DNA of 64,000 nucleotides. Origin: Aureispira anguillae (GTDB taxonomy: Bacteria; Bacteroidota; Bacteroidia; Chitinophagales; Saprospiraceae). The stretch spans positions 7,107,001-7,171,000 of the forward strand of contig NZ_AP026867.1 of assembly GCF_026000115.1 (NCBI RefSeq), in the 5' to 3' direction. Numbering within the stretch: position 1 is the stretch's first letter; every line of letters begins with the position of its first letter. The notes under the pieces are model-generated. The model was not told the DNA's origin. It was given only the letters and a program-made list of their open reading frames with translations, and ran no database searches. This document shows positions 1,046-10,500 of this stretch, piece by piece. The translations under genes and the position numbers were made by a program.

Positions 1046-1855
1046 ATGAAACGAAATTTTAAAAATAAGGTGGTCATTATAACAGGAGCTTCTGGCAATT
1101 TGGGGCGGGCGATTTGTAAGCGTTTTGGGCAAGCGGGGGCTCAAATAGTGGCTTTGGATCTCAATACTACACTTTTGACCGATCTTGAAGCCGAACTCAA
1201 AAAGGAACAAATAAAGGTATTGCCTATTGCTTGTGATATTACCAATAAAAAATCTTGTCAGGGGGCAATAGAACAAGTGCTAAATACATGGGGGCGCATT
1301 GATGGCTTGGTCAATAATGCTGGAATTACACATATTGAAAGATATACCCAAATGGACAAAACAAAAGAAATTACTCGCCGAGTGATGGAAGTTAATTTTT
1401 TTGGAGCTGTTAATTGCACAGAGGTCGTTTTGGAGCAAATTTGTCAACAAAAAGGCGTTTTTATTAATATTTCTAGTGTAGCGGGGTTTGCACCTTTGTT
1501 GGGGCGAACGGCTTATGCTGCTAGCAAACATGCTTTGCATGGTTTTTTTGAATCCTTAAGAACAGAATTGCAAGAAGAAGGAGTGCATTGCATGATGGTT
1601 TGTCCTTCATTTATTCAAGCCCCAGCTAAAGGGAAGGCAGCTTCTGTAGGAAAAAACGCTATTTATCAGCAGAAAAAAACAATTGGTAAATCCATCTCAG
1701 CAGATGAAATTGCCAAAGATATTTTTGCGTATTGTTTGGCAAATAAGCCTTTGTTAATAGCAGGCAAAACAGGCAAAATTTCCTATTGGTTGCATCGTTT
1801 TTTCCCTAAAATATATGAACGAGCTATGATAAAAAGATTAAAGCATGATATTTAG
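1046..1855 (+). CDS. SDR-family NAD(P)-dependent oxidoreductase
   Basis: A classical short-chain dehydrogenase/reductase of 269 residues. The cofactor loop TGASGNLG is at residues 13-20, NNAG follows near residue 90, a Ser of the ISS segment precedes it, and the catalytic YAASK is near residue 158, so the Ser-Tyr-Lys triad looks intact. The Asp after the second strand (ALDLN) suggests NAD(H) rather than NADP(H). The substrate cannot be read from the sequence; SDRs of this shape act on alcohols, ketoacyl groups or sterol-like compounds. The gene is monocistronic. Its TAG stop lies inside a 7-base direct repeat (TATTTAG) that flanks the inverted-repeat element immediately downstream, so the present 3' end may have been shaped by an insertion. 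Confidence 0.85.
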   Translation: MKRNFKNKVVIITGASGNLGRAICKRFGQAGAQIVALDLNTTLLTDLEAELKKEQIKVLPIACDITNKKSCQGAIEQVLNTWGRIDGLVNNAGITHIERYTQMDKTKEITRRVMEVNFFGAVNCTEVVLEQICQQKGVFINISSVAGFAPLLGRTAYAASKHALHGFFESLRTELQEEGVHCMMVCPSFIQAPAKGKAASVGKNAIYQQKKTIGKSISADEIAKDIFAYCLANKPLLIAGKTGKISYWLHRFFPKIYERAMIKRLKHDI

Positions 1856-3600: not shown

Positions 3601-4545
3601 ATGAAAAAACTAAAATTTTTTGGAGAGGTATTGGGATTGCATCCTTTTAGAGAGCGTATGAAACAAGCTAAAATTGCTTTATTTGGAGAGGAAGATGTTC
3701 CTAGTTCTAAATTTGGCTTATCTAGCTTATCCCAATTTCATCCACGAATTTCTCCCAAATTATGGCGAGGAAAAGCTTATATACCCAATAAGGTTATTGT
3801 ATCAAATTTGGTAAATCACAACCCAACTCCAATAGAAGCGGGCTGGTCGGTCAAAAAAACACAAGTTGTAGACTTTAGAGGAGGTCGATTGACCTATGAC
3901 AGCCACAATGGAACCGATTTTTCCATTCCTGTAGGGTCTACTGTTTGCACAGCAGCGGCAGGGGAAGTGGTTGCTATTTTTTCAGAATTTAACCGTGGGG
4001 GGCTTAAGATTTTTATTGATCATGGCGCTGGTCTAATGACTTGTTATGCTCACTTGGCTAGACCATTAGTAAAAGTAGGTGATCGACTAAAAAGAGGAGC
4101 AGCCATTGCTTTGTCTGGTTATAGCGGTTTGGATGCTTTGGTTTCGTTTCCCTTTGGCATTCCTCATGTTCATTTTAATACTTGGCTCAATGGAGAGCCT
4201 GTTGATCCTTTTCCGCATGATGGCTTGCCCTCTATGTGGTTGAATGGCGCTTTGCCAACGCCTGCAACTAGCGATGCGTGTGACTTTGTGCCTTCAGTTT
4301 ATAAAGAAAAACAGGTCTTAGATGTAATTAATAATTGTAAAACAGCTAGTGTCCGAAAAGAACTATTGGCAATTGCTCCCTTAAAAAAGCAGGCAGTACA
4401 GACCATTATTCAGATGAATTATTATCCTACCCGATTTAAGGCTCGTTATAATGTCTACGATCAAGCATATCCAAGGATACCTTGCTTAGATTTGCCTTTT
4501 AGTGCGACCGATTTTGATGGTATCGTCTTTTTGGATCAGCTTTAA
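3601..4545 (+). CDS. M23-family metallopeptidase, cytoplasmic-looking or atypically exported
   Basis: The protein has 314 residues. A LytM/M23 endopeptidase domain occupies about residues 95-205. The zinc ligands are visible as HNGTDF (His and Asp of the HxxxD motif, near residue 100) and HVHF (HxH, near residue 190). The family cleaves peptidoglycan cross-links or glycine peptides. There is no signal peptide or N-terminal membrane helix, unusual for a wall hydrolase. About 105 residues after the peptidase domain are not recognised. The ATG at 3601 follows a dispersed repeat that forms the leader. Catalytic family is confident; substrate and location are not. Confidence 0.82.
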   Translation: MKKLKFFGEVLGLHPFRERMKQAKIALFGEEDVPSSKFGLSSLSQFHPRISPKLWRGKAYIPNKVIVSNLVNHNPTPIEAGWSVKKTQVVDFRGGRLTYDSHNGTDFSIPVGSTVCTAAAGEVVAIFSEFNRGGLKIFIDHGAGLMTCYAHLARPLVKVGDRLKRGAAIALSGYSGLDALVSFPFGIPHVHFNTWLNGEPVDPFPHDGLPSMWLNGALPTPATSDACDFVPSVYKEKQVLDVINNCKTASVRKELLAIAPLKKQAVQTIIQMNYYPTRFKARYNVYDQAYPRIPCLDLPFSATDFDGIVFLDQL

Positions 4546-5004
4546 TCTGTTGAATAGTAATTATCTATTGCCCAATAGGATAAAAAAAGATACAAATCAC
4601 TAACAAAAATGATAAATCGTATTGTAGAATAAAGTACATAACTTATCTTTGCCCCGAAAATAACATGAGTTACTGATAGAATTGCCCTGCAAGCATTTTG
4701 CAGTTGATAACGTTTAATTAGATGTTCAACCAAACTCATTGTTATTCAAGATTCTAATACAAAGAACATTTTTTTAGATACTATTTATTTAAATTACATT
4801 AGTTTATTAGTTGTAATCAGTTGATTATTAGCAGTGTGGATCTTTGTGTTAAAAAGAGGAAGCTAAGCAAAGTAGGGGGATAAGTTTTTTTTATTCATCT
4901 ATATAAGTAAGTAGATGCCCAATTTAATGTTAATTATTTTTGTCCATCTACTTAGATAGAAAATAATAAACTGATATTAATCAACGATCAAAAAAATAAA
5001 AGAT
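4546..5004 (+). other. 459-base spacer before the desaturase gene
   Basis: No convincing gene. The minus-strand frame at 4542-4739 has no recognisable family. The spacer holds a good promoter (4622-4651), a CTGCAA/TTGCAG hairpin shortly after it, and an inverted pair based on CATCTACTTA near 4896-4918 and 4943-4960. A possible second -7 box, TATTTTTG, lies at 4935-4942. If the first promoter serves the desaturase, its leader is about 350 bases long. Confidence 0.5.
4622..4651 (+). promoter_or_regulatory. Promoter with TTG, 19-base spacer, TATCTTTG
   Basis: TTG at 4622-4624 and TATCTTTG at 4644-4651 match the Bacteroidota -33/-7 consensus at the expected spacing. Only a three-codon frame follows directly, so the transcript is either a long leader for the desaturase gene or a small RNA. 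Confidence 0.55.
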
Positions 5005-5994
5005 ATGGCTACCCATAGAGCATCAAAAAATGACTATTACTGGGCGGATGATAAAGAACCCCATTTTCAGCGTAGACAGGATATTCTAAAAGCGCATCCT
5101 GAGGTTAAAGAGCTATTTGGGATTAATCCTAAGATGAAGTACTTTACTGTACTTTGGGTGACTTTGCAAATGACGGTAGCAACCTTTTGTTATCAATTGG
5201 ATTGGATTCCATTCTTATTAGTTACTTATTTTGTTGGGGCTACTATTATTCATGGAATGTTCTTGGCGGTTCATGAAATTACACATGATATGGCATTCGA
5301 AAAGAAAGTACACAACAACTATTTGGCATTTGTTGCCAATATACCAATGGTGGCTCCTTATGCAATGGCATTTAAATATTATCATGCAATCCACCACTGG
5401 GATCAAGGAAGAGACGGCGAAGATACGGATATTCCTACTTTGGGTGAAGCAATGTTATTTAGAGGCTTTATCGGAAAAGTAATTTGGTTTGTTTCTCAAA
5501 TCTTTTTTTATGCCTTGCGTCCAATGGCAATCAAACCGCTTAAAGTTGACAAATGGGTAGTTTATAATTTTATTTTTCAATTGAGTGTCATGTTTATCTA
5601 TTTTTATAGTGTAACGACCTTTTTGGGGCTAGATGCCGCCTTATCAGCAGCGCTTTACTTATTTTTGTCGCTTGTGTTTGCAGGAGGTTTGCACCCTACA
5701 TCAGGGCACTTTATTTCTGAGCACTATGTATTTGAAGAAGGGCAAGAAACATACTCTTATTATGGACCATTGAATTTGGTTACTTTTAACGTAGGTTACC
5801 ACAATGAACACCATGATTTTCCTCGTATTCCTGGAAGCCGTTTGCCTGAATTGAGAAAAATTGCACCAGAGTTTTACGATAATTTACATTCTTATAATTC
5901 TTGGGTTGCTGTAAATTGGCGCTTTTTGACCGATAAAAATGTGACCTTATACTCTAGAACCAAACGTAAGAATCCTAACTTAAAGAAGGCATAA
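5005..5994 (+). CDS. Sphingolipid (dihydroceramide) delta-4 desaturase-like protein
   Basis: Membrane di-iron desaturase of 329 residues. Three histidine boxes are intact: HEITHD at 90-95, HAIHH at 127-131 and HNEHHD at 266-271. The N terminus (YYWADDKEPHFQRRQDIL) matches the Lipid_DES N-terminal domain that precedes the desaturase fold in DES1/DEGS1 proteins. The C-terminal block, including HPTSGHFISEHY, ETYSYYGPLNL and FNVGYHNEHHDFP, agrees almost residue for residue with animal DEGS1 as I remember it. DEGS1 converts dihydroceramide to ceramide by inserting the trans-4 double bond, using cytochrome b5 electrons at the ER. Here it would act in the cell membrane on bacterial sphinganine lipids, which many Bacteroidota make. 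No serine palmitoyltransferase is in the window. Alternatives are a delta-4 hydroxylase or a fatty-acyl desaturase. Confidence 0.85.
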   Translation: MATHRASKNDYYWADDKEPHFQRRQDILKAHPEVKELFGINPKMKYFTVLWVTLQMTVATFCYQLDWIPFLLVTYFVGATIIHGMFLAVHEITHDMAFEKKVHNNYLAFVANIPMVAPYAMAFKYYHAIHHWDQGRDGEDTDIPTLGEAMLFRGFIGKVIWFVSQIFFYALRPMAIKPLKVDKWVVYNFIFQLSVMFIYFYSVTTFLGLDAALSAALYLFLSLVFAGGLHPTSGHFISEHYVFEEGQETYSYYGPLNLVTFNVGYHNEHHDFPRIPGSRLPELRKIAPEFYDNLHSYNSWVAVNWRFLTDKNVTLYSRTKRKNPNLKKA

Positions 5995-6010
5995 ACAGGA
6001 TCTAATATAC

Positions 6011-6054
6011 ACTAAAAAGGCTGTCAGAAATTAATTTCTGACAGCCTTTTTAGT
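6011..6054. terminator. Perfect 44-base palindromic terminator
   Basis: A perfect inverted repeat with 22-base arms (outer ACTAAAAAGGCTGTCAG, centre AAATT/AATTT) starts 17 bases after the desaturase stop. The A-tract on one arm and T-tract on the other make it a terminator that works in both directions. Confidence 0.85.
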
Positions 6055-6578
6055 TTGTTGGATGTAACAAGGGTGATTCAGTAGTAAAACAAAAATACAT
6101 TTTAGTAGCTTTGTAGCTTCACAAAGTGCTGTTTATCAAAAGATAACAACAGGTGTAGTTGTTTCTTTTTAATAAAGTAGACATTAGAAGTTTTAATCTA
6201 GCCCTCATTTTGGGGCAAAATAGCAAAAAGCGGGGTAATCAATACCTCTTGTTCTTTTTGCATTGCCCAAAAAGAACCAAAAACGCTAGGACTGGATGAC
6301 TTCTTGGACAAAGTATCTTCTTGAAAGTTTAGGCTTTCAGAAACTCGCTTCGCTCAGACACCTGAAAACCTTATTTTTCTATAAGAAAAATAACAACTTT
6401 CTGCGGCGTACTTTGTTTCCAATCAGTCATATGCCCCCCCAAAAAAAAAACTCTAAAAATGGGTTATGTGATGCTTAGAAAATGATTCAAAGAAAGCTCA
6501 TTGTCAAACGTTTCATTGCAAAAATAGTAGCAAATATATTAGGACGAATATATTTGTTTTACTCCTGAAAGTCCCTAA
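6055..6578. repeat. Gene-free stretch with a decayed dispersed repeat
   Basis: No gene supported. It contains the inverted repeat GTTCTTTTTG (6251-6260) / CAAAAAGAAC (6268-6277), then AACTCGCTTCGCTCAGACACCTG-type sequence around 6341-6365 and a C7/A10 run at 6435-6450. I recall such 'contains CTTCGCTC' blocks as common intergenic repeats in this group, but that cannot be checked here. The plus-strand frame at 6296-6478 is an accident of this repeat. Confidence 0.45.
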
Positions 6579-6611
6579 CAAAAAAACGAGGCTACCTTTT
6601 AAGGCAGCCTC
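6579..6611 (-). terminator. Terminator for the cupin gene
   Basis: On the minus strand GAGGCTGCC (from 6611) pairs with GGTAGCCTC (6588-6596), one mismatch, and is followed by CGTTTTTTTG. It lies 27 bases past the stop of the cupin gene. Confidence 0.8.
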
Positions 6612-6638
6612 TAGAATTCAACTTCTTAGCTATATGAT

Positions 6639-7157
6639 TTATTTTACAAATGGGTTGCCTTCTAAAACAACTTTATCACTTTTGTTTAAAGAAGGAATAG
6701 CGCAGCAGCATTGGTAGCAATACCCCATAACAACACCAAAAGGTCCTGTTTTGATTTCATACTTTTCTCCTTGAGGAATATACATCCAATCTCCAGCTTT
6801 TAGCTCTTGATCCTTGTAGTAGATAGATCCACTAATGATAAATCGTACGCCATCTCCTTCATCGTGTGAGTGCTCAGGAACCGAAATATCAGGATTACCA
6901 ATAGAGATAAAAAACTGGCTTTGCTCAAAAGCAAATGGTAGCTGCCATTTTTTGAATCCTTGTGGCACGTTATCCGTAGCAAGTAAATTCGCTAGTTTGA
7001 TAGAATCTTCATCTTGAGAAGTAATGATCTTGTTTCCAACTCTAGTTTGAGTTTCTTTGATAGCTTGTTGGATACGGTCAAGTCCTTCTTGAAACGTTGC
7101 TTTGTTGGGAGCAAATTTGTTCTCTAGCGTCAAACTTTCTTCTGAATACGTTTTCAT
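6639..7157 (-). CDS. Cupin-domain protein
   Basis: Predicted cytoplasmic protein of 172 residues from the ATG at 7157. The frame extends to 7196, but the extra 13 residues (MGELYFLIYKKIH) look like translated leader. A single cupin barrel fills the C-terminal half: SVPEHSHDEGDGVRF gives the His-x-His...Glu/Asp metal site, and SIYYKDQELKAGDWMYIP gives the G(X)5PxG-like second motif. The C-terminal end is unusual in having YCYQCCCAIP, four cysteines in six residues, which could bind a metal or a cluster. Cupins include dioxygenases, isomerases and binding proteins; I cannot choose. A possible -7 box lies at 7274-7281. Confidence 0.7.
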   Translation of the reverse strand: MKTYSEESLTLENKFAPNKATFQEGLDRIQQAIKETQTRVGNKIITSQDEDSIKLANLLATDNVPQGFKKWQLPFAFEQSQFFISIGNPDISVPEHSHDEGDGVRFIISGSIYYKDQELKAGDWMYIPQGEKYEIKTGPFGVVMGYCYQCCCAIPSLNKSDKVVLEGNPFVK

Positions 7158-7544
7158 GTGTATTTTTTTATAAATTAGGAAATATAGTTCACCCAATCGT
7201 TAAAAAATGGCACGACAATCCTATTAGTTGATCAACTATTTTCTAACAATTAGGTTGTACTGGAATGATAAAACAAAAGTATATATTTTTTTTAAATAAA
7301 AAATGTTTTTCGATGTTTTATTTTATATGTTAACTATTGTTAATGAGTTGATAATGTTAAATTAAAGATGTTTTGCTGTTGTTGTTGAATTGGTTTGATC
7401 TAAGGCGTATAGCGATTTTATAGATAGGTTTTAGCTTAATTATAGCGATAAAATAGGTGCAATGAAAGGGTATTGTATAGCATTTGGCTATAAGCATAAG
7501 ACGGATTAGTTGAAATCCGTAGACCCAAGAAATTTTAGCCTATG
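7158..7544. other. 387-base AT-rich spacer
   Basis: No gene seen. A minus-strand TACTTTTG box (7274-7281) could be the -7 element of the cupin promoter with a leader of about 110 bases. A short hairpin ACGGATT/AATCCGT (7501-7520) lies just past the sbcC stop and may be a weak terminator because no U-tract follows. Confidence 0.4.
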
Positions 7545-10500
7545 TTACACCTCTGTCACCTTCAATTGACTAAAACCACCTCCTTTTTTGACCACATGAA
7601 TTTGAGTTGAAATATTTTGTTTGAGCTGTTCAATGTGAGAAATAATTCCAATGGTTTTGCCCTTAGATTCTAGGGTTTGTAAAGCTCGAATGGCCACTTG
7701 TAAGGTGTCGGCATCCAAGGTGCCAAAGCCCTCATCAATAAACAGGGATTCAATGGTGGCTTGTCCACCAGCCAAATCAGACAAGCCTAAGGCTAACGCT
7801 AAACTTGCCAAAAAACTCTCGCCCCCCGAAAGTGTATTGAGAGGTCGTTTATTATTGGCCTGAAAGGTATCTACAATATCAATTTCCAGAATGTTATTGG
7901 GGCGCTTGTCCTGATAATCAGCAAATCGTTTTTCCAGATAGTAGCGACCATTGATAAAGTATCGAAGATGTTTGTTGGCAAGCTGAATTAATTTGGTTAG
8001 GGTAATGCTTTGGGCAAAAACTCGAAATTTTTTGCCATCTTTAGAACCAATTATTTCTTTGAGTGCAGCCCAGCGATCGACCTCTTTTTTATAATGGCTA
8101 ATTTGATCAAGGAGCGTTTTATTCTTTTCTTCTTGAAGGGTTTGATAACGCAATTTTTCAGTGATGCTACCAATCTGTACCAACAATTCTTTGAGTTGCA
8201 CTTGCAGTTGTTCACAGGCTTGTTGCGTCTGCTCTTTATCCTCTAAAGGAAGGCTTAAGGTTTTTACAATCGTTTCATATTGTTGGGCATTTAATGCTTG
8301 TTGTTCTGAGGTAAGATTATGCTGTTGTGTTAAATCTTGTTGTTGTTGAGCAATTCTTTGCGCAATTGTAGGATCTAAAATACTAGTTTTTAATTGCTCT
8401 AAGTCGTCCAACCCAATTTGTTGAATCGCTTGAAGTAAAGCAGGGCGTTTTTTATCCAACAACAATTGAAATTGAGTTTGCTGTTTTTGTTTTTCTGAAA
8501 GGATACCAAGATTGGTGGCTTGTACTTGCTCAAGTTCTTGTACTTGTTGTTTGTTTGTTTCTACAACACGACTAAGCTCATCCAGTTGTGCTATTTTGCC
8601 TTCTTTAGCCTCGTGGATAGACGAACCACTAAATAAGTCATCACGACTGGTTTGAAGTTGTTTTAATGCTGTTTGTAGAGCTGTGGCAGCTTCTTTTTTA
8701 CGTTGTTCTTTTTCCTGTATATCCGTAATTTGCTCTTGCGTGTTGTTGAGTTTTAAATTAAGGTGTTCTAATTGAGCTGCTTGCTGCTGTTGTTGCTCAA
8801 TTTGTTCAGCATAACTATTTCTGTACTGCTCTAACAAATCAATTGCTTTGGGCAAGTCCTCTTGAATATGATAACTAAGCAATTGTTTTTTTACGGTTTT
8901 TTGAACGGCTTCGATTGTTTGTTGGTAATGGGCAATTTCTAACGTTTGCTCCTCTTTTTGCTGCTTAAAATCCTTTAGGTACAAATCATTTTGACGAATT
9001 TGGATGTTAATATTCTCATCGTCCTTTTGGCTATTCTGAATTTTCTGATGAATTTTTTGCAAAGTGCGCTCTAACTCCAATAATTTTTTAACTCCAGTAG
9101 CGGTATCTTCAATCTGTACTTTTAGCGCATTTTTTTGATGAATAAAGGGCGCAACATAGAGTTGTTTTTGTTCTATAATCGAACGGATTTTTTCTTCTAT
9201 ATTGGTCAAATTATTTAAAACTACAGTTTTGCTTTTTTGTAAATCTTGAATATTCGAAAAAATAAGACGTTGAGTACTGATAATGTCTAGGTACTTTTGC
9301 TCTAATTTTTCTCTACTCGTTTTAGCTTTAGTACGATCTTGATCTGCCTTTTTTAGGGCATAATTTATATCTATCTTTAAGTTTCTAAAGGGCTGTTGGG
9401 TAGAATAACAAAGTGGACATTCAGCACCTTCTTCGAGTTGTCCTCTAAGGGCACTCAGGTTATTTTTTTCTAGTAAACCTTGATAAACGAGTTCATAATA
9501 AGCTTCCTGATTACGAATGTTAATTAGCTGTAGCTCTTGATCGAGAAAAAGTTTGTCCAAATTCTCTAATTCAGTTTGTTTACTCTCAATATCCTCATCA
9601 ATTGTAATCAATTGCCCAAGTAGTTCTTGATGTTTTTTTCGTTCTTCCTCTACCTTCGTTAATTCTTCTAATAACTGCCCCATATTAGAGCTTTGTTCTT
9701 GAATGTAAGTTAGGTGCTCCTCATGAGTCAAGGACGGATCAAGGTGATATTCTTTGCAGAAAGCAGCATAAGCTTGTTGCTCTTTGGCAAGGATTGCTGA
9801 ATTTTTGTCGAGGTTGAGTTGGAGTTTTTGGGCTAGGATAGCTTGTTCTTTGATTTTATGCTGAGTACTGAGCTGCTTTTTGTGTGTTGCATTTAAATTT
9901 TCTTGATGTTTTTGTAATTCTTTGTACTGATTCTTTACTTCAAAAATAGTATCAGAACCTACTAAGGGAGCATAAAACTGGTGCGCTTCTAACCATTTAG
10001 TGGTAGCGATTTGAGTTTTGAGCAGTTCCTTTTTTTCTTGACCAGCAACCTGGATCAGCTTATTTTTTACAGCGGCACTTTCTGCCAATGCACTCAAATC
10101 TTTGGCTAAAGATTGAGCAATCTTTTCTTCCGTTTCAATTTGAGCATCCAACTTAACCACCTTGTCATAAACTTGCTCAAAGGCAGCATAAGCTTCCTTT
10201 GCTGTTTTATATTGCTGGGTGAGTTGCTCTTTTTCTACGTTTAATGTTTGAAGTTGAGTCTTTGTTGTGCTTGTGCTGGCTTCAAGTTCCTGAATTTCTT
10301 GAAGGGCAGTTTTAAGCTGCTTTTGAATCTGTTCTAATTCTTCTAGGGCAGGTTTAAATTCAATCGCTTTGGAATGAAGTGCCAATTGTTCAAAATAAGG
10401 TTGCGCAACTTCTTGCTTTTCTAGGATAGCAGCCAATTGCACTGACAATTCTTTTTTTTCTTGCTGCAAGCCCTCCAACTTAAGCATGATTTGCAATTGT

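Follow-up and report, generated by a model that had tools for sequence, protein, structure and literature searches.

We found that a gene of Aureispira anguillae, a bacterium of a marine genus, probably encodes a membrane di-iron dihydroceramide delta-4-desaturase of the DES family, which would take the cell's own ceramide as its substrate. In animals and plants, enzymes of this family give ceramide its typical double bond, and ceramide of the sphingosine type usually counts as a lipid of eukaryotes. Our reading is based on the membership of the protein in this family, on the other genes present in the same genome, on the lack of a SulA match there, and on the association of the desaturase with serine palmitoyltransferase (SPT) in two phyla.

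The gene, an intact open reading frame (ORF), lies in the window, by which we mean the whole stretch of 64,000 nucleotides that was analysed, and its features are collected in Table 1. The initial annotation had described a DEGS1-type desaturase with three His boxes, far closer to DEGS1 than to bacterial fatty-acid desaturases; its place in the sphingolipid delta-4-desaturase family, and not among the named bacterial acyl desaturases, was borne out. The motifs it quoted are present in the translation. The Pfam domain Lipid_DES (PF08557) is matched over profile positions 1-37 of 37 (E 4.1e-17, 61.8 bits, against a Pfam cut-off of 23 bits; 65.8 bits for the same gene in the genome-wide profile search), and FA_desaturase (PF00487) is found at residues 67-298 (E 3.3e-26). 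The boxes HEITH, HAIHH and HNEHH match the HX3H/HX2HH/HX2HH pattern, and their histidines are conserved in 95% or more of the rows of a 67-row alignment and invariant in one of 26 rows. PF08557 and PF00487 both occur in 26 of 26 aligned bacterial members (the window protein and 25 of the 31 loci from a contig scan). No NCBIfam model was over its cut-off for this protein; the scores with DesA (29.1 bits) and DesB (20.7 bits) did not reach the equivalog cut-off of 500, and on these scores we rejected an ordinary bacterial acyl desaturase.

Table 1. The desaturase gene, its conserved elements and the repeat that follows it, in window coordinates.
Feature	Position	Strand	Evidence
Sphingolipid delta-4-desaturase-family gene, 329 aa	5005..5994	+	Intact ORF, ATG to stop; PF08557 and PF00487
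Lipid_DES N-terminal domain, residues 7-43	5023..5133	+	PF08557
First His box HEITH, residues 90-94	5272..5286	+	H90, E91 and H94 conserved (at least 95% of 67 rows; all of 26)
Second His box HAIHH, residues 127-131	5383..5397	+	H127, H130 and H131 conserved
Third His box HNEHH, residues 266-270	5800..5814	+	H266, E268, H269 and H270 invariant (26 rows)
Perfect inverted repeat with a terminal T run, probable terminator	6014..6051	+	Direct sequence reading

The desaturase is present in a single copy; the proteins of the genome that resemble it next best share 26% and 24% identity with it. An M23 peptidase ORF lies 459 bases upstream; this distance, together with the inverted repeat and its T run (not listed by our terminator scan, whose rule takes loops of 3-8), makes the desaturase look like a single-gene unit. 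A few kb upstream, at window positions 1046-1855, there is an SDR gene (PRK06181, 262.7 bits against an NCBIfam cut-off of 215), a relative of which occurs near the desaturase in two Aureispira loci (L005 and L006); 3-ketosphinganine reductase is a candidate role only.

The DES family is common in bacteria. The closest relatives of the desaturase in the contig scan, 79-84% identical, come from five records named Aureispira, and the 31 loci of that scan, nearly all from metagenome-assembled genomes (MAGs) of which some are perhaps mis-binned, belong to records named Saprospiraceae, other Bacteroidota, Balneolaceae, Ignavibacteriae, Verrucomicrobia, Bdellovibrionales, Myxococcales and Planctomycetes kin. 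When 395 genomes of the class were searched, 39 gave a PF08557 match (38 of them above the cut-off, the window genome counted), and the domain was matched in 53 of 290 genomes of Bdellovibrionota, the phylum of one Bdellovibrionales genome from the scan (that of locus L030), which is counted here; it was matched in 0/14 control genomes in both profile searches. With its His boxes, and with a Lipid_DES domain that recurs in relatives and in none of the controls, the gene is not a chance occurrence. BLAST found no DES ORF in two of the 38 class loci that were fetched (L094 from G370 and L109 from G309), and both genomes are counted as DES+ below. Carriage of DES on mobile elements was considered and rejected, as no relative was found among viral contigs, plasmids and phages; in a BFVD fold search, the matches with E <= 0.01 were giant-virus desaturases only, at 12-16% identity. 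At one of the other loci (L008:13612-16331), short repeated peptides in the ORF translations (e.g. IQHKSRARF) suggest a CRISPR-like repeat array.

A dihydroceramide desaturase would need a ceramide to act on. The initial annotation had pointed to SPT and ceramide synthase as the genes to look for in this genome (7,793,157 bases, 3 contigs), and an SPT-type enzyme was indeed found, with bCerS-like and CerR-like neighbours. A PF00155 search gave 22 matches, three of which we judged by eye to be alpha-oxoamine synthases and then scanned with NCBIfam. One is a glycine C-acetyltransferase that passes its cut-off, the second is BioF-like and stays under its cut-off, and the third, encoded on contig C2, is SPT-like. 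The best NCBIfam model for the third is SerpalmtaseCFB (NF047600), at 487 bits and under the equivalog cut-off of 640; among solved structures it matches the serine palmitoyltransferases 8guh and 3a2b best (380 bits), against just 225 bits with the cysteate-C-fatty acyltransferase 28eh. According to PMC9304779, Lys281 marks SulA and an alanine at the same position marks Spt; the SPT-like protein has its PLP lysine at Lys255 and, thirty residues on, Ala285. Its gene is flanked by a GNAT gene (28.4 bits) on one side and by an NAD-epimerase-type, CerR-like gene (Epimerase, 136.2 bits), divergent, on the other, which looks like the arrangement expected for bCerS and CerR. PMC11334938 states that the Spt, bCerS and CerR genes often form a cluster but lie apart in those Bacteroidota that produce sphingolipids, which makes the cluster found here unusual. 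A chromosomal FA_hydroxylase protein was also found, 42% identical to the FA_hydroxylase of a ceramide cluster in a distant relative (locus L029, described below). Thus, a ceramide supply pathway seems to be present in the own genome. A review (PMC7956469) describes Aureispira marina as rich in ceramide and perhaps devoid of LPS, and a title cited there concerns 2-hydroxy-fatty-acid ceramides.

With its genes for a Rep3 initiator and a ParA-like protein, contig C2 (122,402 bases) is probably a plasmid; the SPT, GNAT and CerR-like genes (L067:16000-19829) seem to be plasmid-borne, the desaturase being chromosomal. Compared with Aureispira sp. CCB-QB1, the SPT is 95% identical and the desaturase just 81%. 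SulA gave no match in the own genome at E <= 1e-95, a search in which 70 of 80 genomes matched. Five other sampled genomes of the same group-coded family (G142, G202, G321, G342 and G361) all have SulA (5/5), with no PF08557 and no SPT at the threshold used. Set against these family members, the own genome looks as if ceramide synthesis had replaced sulfonolipid synthesis.

SPT tracks the desaturase across genomes in two phyla. In the class sample, SPT was found in 16/39 DES+ and 1/41 DES- genomes (p 1.6e-5), at a threshold that is not fully specific, since Bacillus subtilis also matches. Counted by genus, it was found in 11/22 DES+ and 1/40 DES- genera (p 1.3e-5), the 11 including one genus (g57) with SPT in just 1/11 of its genomes. 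In the Bdellovibrionota draw, an SPT-like protein was present in 39/40 DES+ against 21/40 DES- genomes (p 1.5e-6), and in 36/37 against 11/27 among genomes of at least 2.5 Mb; the diagnostic alanine was read in 30/30 fetched loci, which are the best 30 of the 60 matches and come from both the DES+ and the DES- group. Shared ancestry is partly controlled in these comparisons, by the genus tally in the class sample, the Bdellovibrionota draw coming without genus information. Among the 23 other genomes of the clade to which the window desaturase belongs (see below), 19 have an SPT-like protein of at least 47% identity, and all 17 of these 19 that were read at the diagnostic position have the alanine. 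GNAT or CerR-like genes occur within the 1.5 kb flanks of 14 of the 19 loci, and a piece of an FA_hydroxylase-like gene in those of two more. In one genome without PF08557 (G469, locus L255), an SPT match of 71% identity is interrupted by three in-frame stops and is possibly a decayed gene.

This co-occurrence is a clearer tie than gene linkage. In the distant relative L029, the genes for an FA_hydroxylase (3854-4489), SPT (4527-5765), a GNAT protein (5807-6928) and an epimerase (6929-7915) lie on one strand, and the desaturase comes directly after the epimerase (match 8001-8954, ORF to 9044). This is the one locus of the 67 examined, many with flanks cut by contig ends, in which a ceramide cluster adjoins DES. 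In the window genome DES is not beside SPT, and the 19 DES genes from the Bdellovibrionota draw (that of L030 included), five of them viewed with flanks beyond 1.5 kb, had no linkage to ceramide genes. A conserved operon around the desaturase was rejected: the recurring neighbours among the fetched loci are common to Aureispira records, and outside these there are just a few small neighbour families, of two or three loci each.

Our model suggests that SPT would join serine and a fatty acyl chain to give 3-ketosphinganine, that the GNAT protein beside it would add the N-acyl chain in the role of bCerS, that the epimerase-like protein would reduce the 3-keto group in the role of CerR, and that a 2-hydroxyl group may be put on the acyl chain by the separate FA_hydroxylase protein. 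The desaturase, using O2 and two electrons, would dehydrogenate the C4-C5 bond of the long-chain base, giving sphingosine-type ceramide. The substrate, the position of the double bond, the order of the steps, what the GNAT, epimerase and hydroxylase proteins do, and the electron donor are predictions. A small lone cytochrome b5 gene is located about 72 kb from the desaturase (G000:C1:7185007-7185216) and is a candidate electron donor only. The cytochrome b5 family was found in 1/14 control genomes, and its distribution (14/39 DES+ against 6/41 DES- genomes, p 0.026; 8/22 against 6/40 genera, p 0.056) is too weak to claim it as a DES partner.

The activity and the substrate could each be read differently. 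The eukaryotic DES family holds both desaturase and C4-hydroxylase activities, which makes C4-hydroxylation the main rival: the enzyme would hydroxylate C4, either as its sole activity or, as DEGS2 does, alongside desaturation, and its product would be a phytosphingosine-type ceramide. PF08557 and the His boxes do not tell a C4-hydroxylase from a desaturase; nothing in our data speaks specifically for hydroxylation, and we regard it as unlikely. It is very unlikely, in our judgement, that the enzyme acts on some other lipid, either a sulfonolipid (N-acylcapnine) or an ordinary fatty acyl chain. What favours a sulfonolipid comes from other genomes. SulA is nearly universal in the class sample: 23 of the 39 DES+ genomes have no SPT at the threshold and 19 of these 23 have SulA, which suggests that some members of the family may use sulfonolipids. 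SulA also accompanies SPT in 14 of the 16 DES+ genomes that have SPT, and in those the substrate is ambiguous. However, SulA does not track DES (33/39 DES+ against 37/41 DES- genomes), and the window genome has no SulA match and an SPT-like enzyme with alanine at the diagnostic position; a sulfonolipid substrate was thus set aside for the window strain. A fatty-acyl substrate is opposed by the DesA and DesB scores, both far under the cut-off. Dihydroceramide as the substrate and delta-4-desaturation as the reaction are the simplest reading and, in our view, the most likely one.

The relation of the gene to the eukaryotic enzymes was analysed with a tree of 65 bacterial rows and three eukaryotic sequences (human, fly and plant) that are approximate reconstructions and not database entries, animals and plants being the eukaryotic groups covered. 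Measured against these reconstructed sequences, the identities of the window desaturase are approximate: 43.9% to human, 44.1% to fly and 46.3% to plant. The initial annotation had called the gene animal-like, which does not hold, since the protein is no closer to the reconstructed animal sequences than to the plant one; an animal-specific origin was rejected for the same reason. The window desaturase belongs to a clade made up of 24 bacterial rows (100/99): most are Saprospirales, joined by one MAG each from Balneolaceae, Ignavibacteriae and Verrucomicrobia. This clade is sister to the reconstructed animal and plant rows together (95/83). Further out come L072, from the class, and L031, from Myxococcales (99/94). 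Rooting with acyl desaturases from the own genome failed, the outgroup branches being too long and saturated, and the placement of the window clade as sister to eukaryotes is a fair lead. A second tree was built with 18 rows from the Bdellovibrionota draw added (one of them a 44-aa fragment) and 16 others dropped. In this tree one sequence of the draw, L229, joins the reconstructed eukaryotic rows (100/92), and together they group beside the window clade (98/94). The neighbours of L229 on its contig look bacterial by eye, and its desaturase ORF is unbroken. The joining of L229 with the reconstructed eukaryotic rows leans towards an origin of the eukaryotic enzyme in bacteria; in an AU test, a grouping of the window clade and L229 without the eukaryotes was not rejected (p-AU 0.054).

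The initial annotation had also raised the idea of a transferred gene. The sister-clade position gives the gene no look of a recent acquisition from an animal. We consider it highly improbable that the gene was recently transferred from a eukaryote and has no settled function in its bacterial host. The window clade is nearer to the reconstructed eukaryotic rows (41-51% identity) than most other bacterial DES rows are (24-44%), with overlapping ranges, and this would fit such a transfer. Against it, the 24-row clade leaves the animal and plant rows outside, an SPT-like protein accompanies the desaturase in most other genomes of the clade, and the GC content of the gene (37.0%) is close to that of the window (36.2%). 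We tentatively hypothesize, while holding it to be rather less than an even chance, that bacteria invented the delta-4 desaturation of sphingoid bases long ago, that it is spread over Bacteroidota, Bdellovibrionota and others and tied to their ceramide pathway, perhaps with sulfonolipids as its target in genomes with SulA only, and that the eukaryotic enzyme was taken from a bacterial lineage near the window gene and L229.

With eukaryotic DEGS1, ifc and plant DES, the window protein shares Lipid_DES, the three His boxes, the length and the C-terminal block, at about 44-46% identity to the reconstructed sequences; it differs in belonging to its own bacterial clade and in occurring with a bacterial-type ceramide gene cluster. 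Human DEGS1 presumably starts with MG; the window protein starts with MATH and so has no MG start. The AlphaFold2 model of the desaturase (pLDDT 84.8, pTM 0.84) gave two Foldseek matches with E <= 0.001, both chains of FtsHi motor complexes (8xks_K and 8xqw_M), and weak fold matches to AlkB (8sbb, E 3.1e-3) and SCD1 (4zyo, E 0.24), which differ from it in having about 15% identity and other substrates. The Spt, bCerS and CerR genes of Caulobacter resemble the SPT-type gene of the window genome and its adjacent GNAT and NAD-epimerase-like genes, a likeness of domains and adjacency. In contrast, the term 'desatur' is absent from the Caulobacter ceramide paper (PMC11087976). Caulobacter also has CC_0202, described in PMC11324152 as a DesA-family hydroxylase of the amide-linked acyl chain. 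Like the window protein, it would be a desaturase-superfamily enzyme working on a bacterial sphingolipid; by that description it acts on the acyl chain and not on the long-chain base, and the window protein scores about 29 bits with DesA.

A literature search gave, among the papers listed, no title or abstract start describing a bacterial dihydroceramide or delta-4 desaturase; most subscription papers are outside its coverage, so this silence is weak evidence of absence. What we describe is a known kind of enzyme in a bacterial setting, possibly part of a larger evolutionary story. A DES-family gene together with what appear to be the cell's own ceramide genes makes a bacterial source of 4-unsaturated ceramide testable. 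If it is real, 4-unsaturated ceramides in marine samples would be assigned differently and a bacterial model for DEGS1 would be on offer. Given a tree with proper sampling, it also becomes testable where the eukaryotic enzyme came from.
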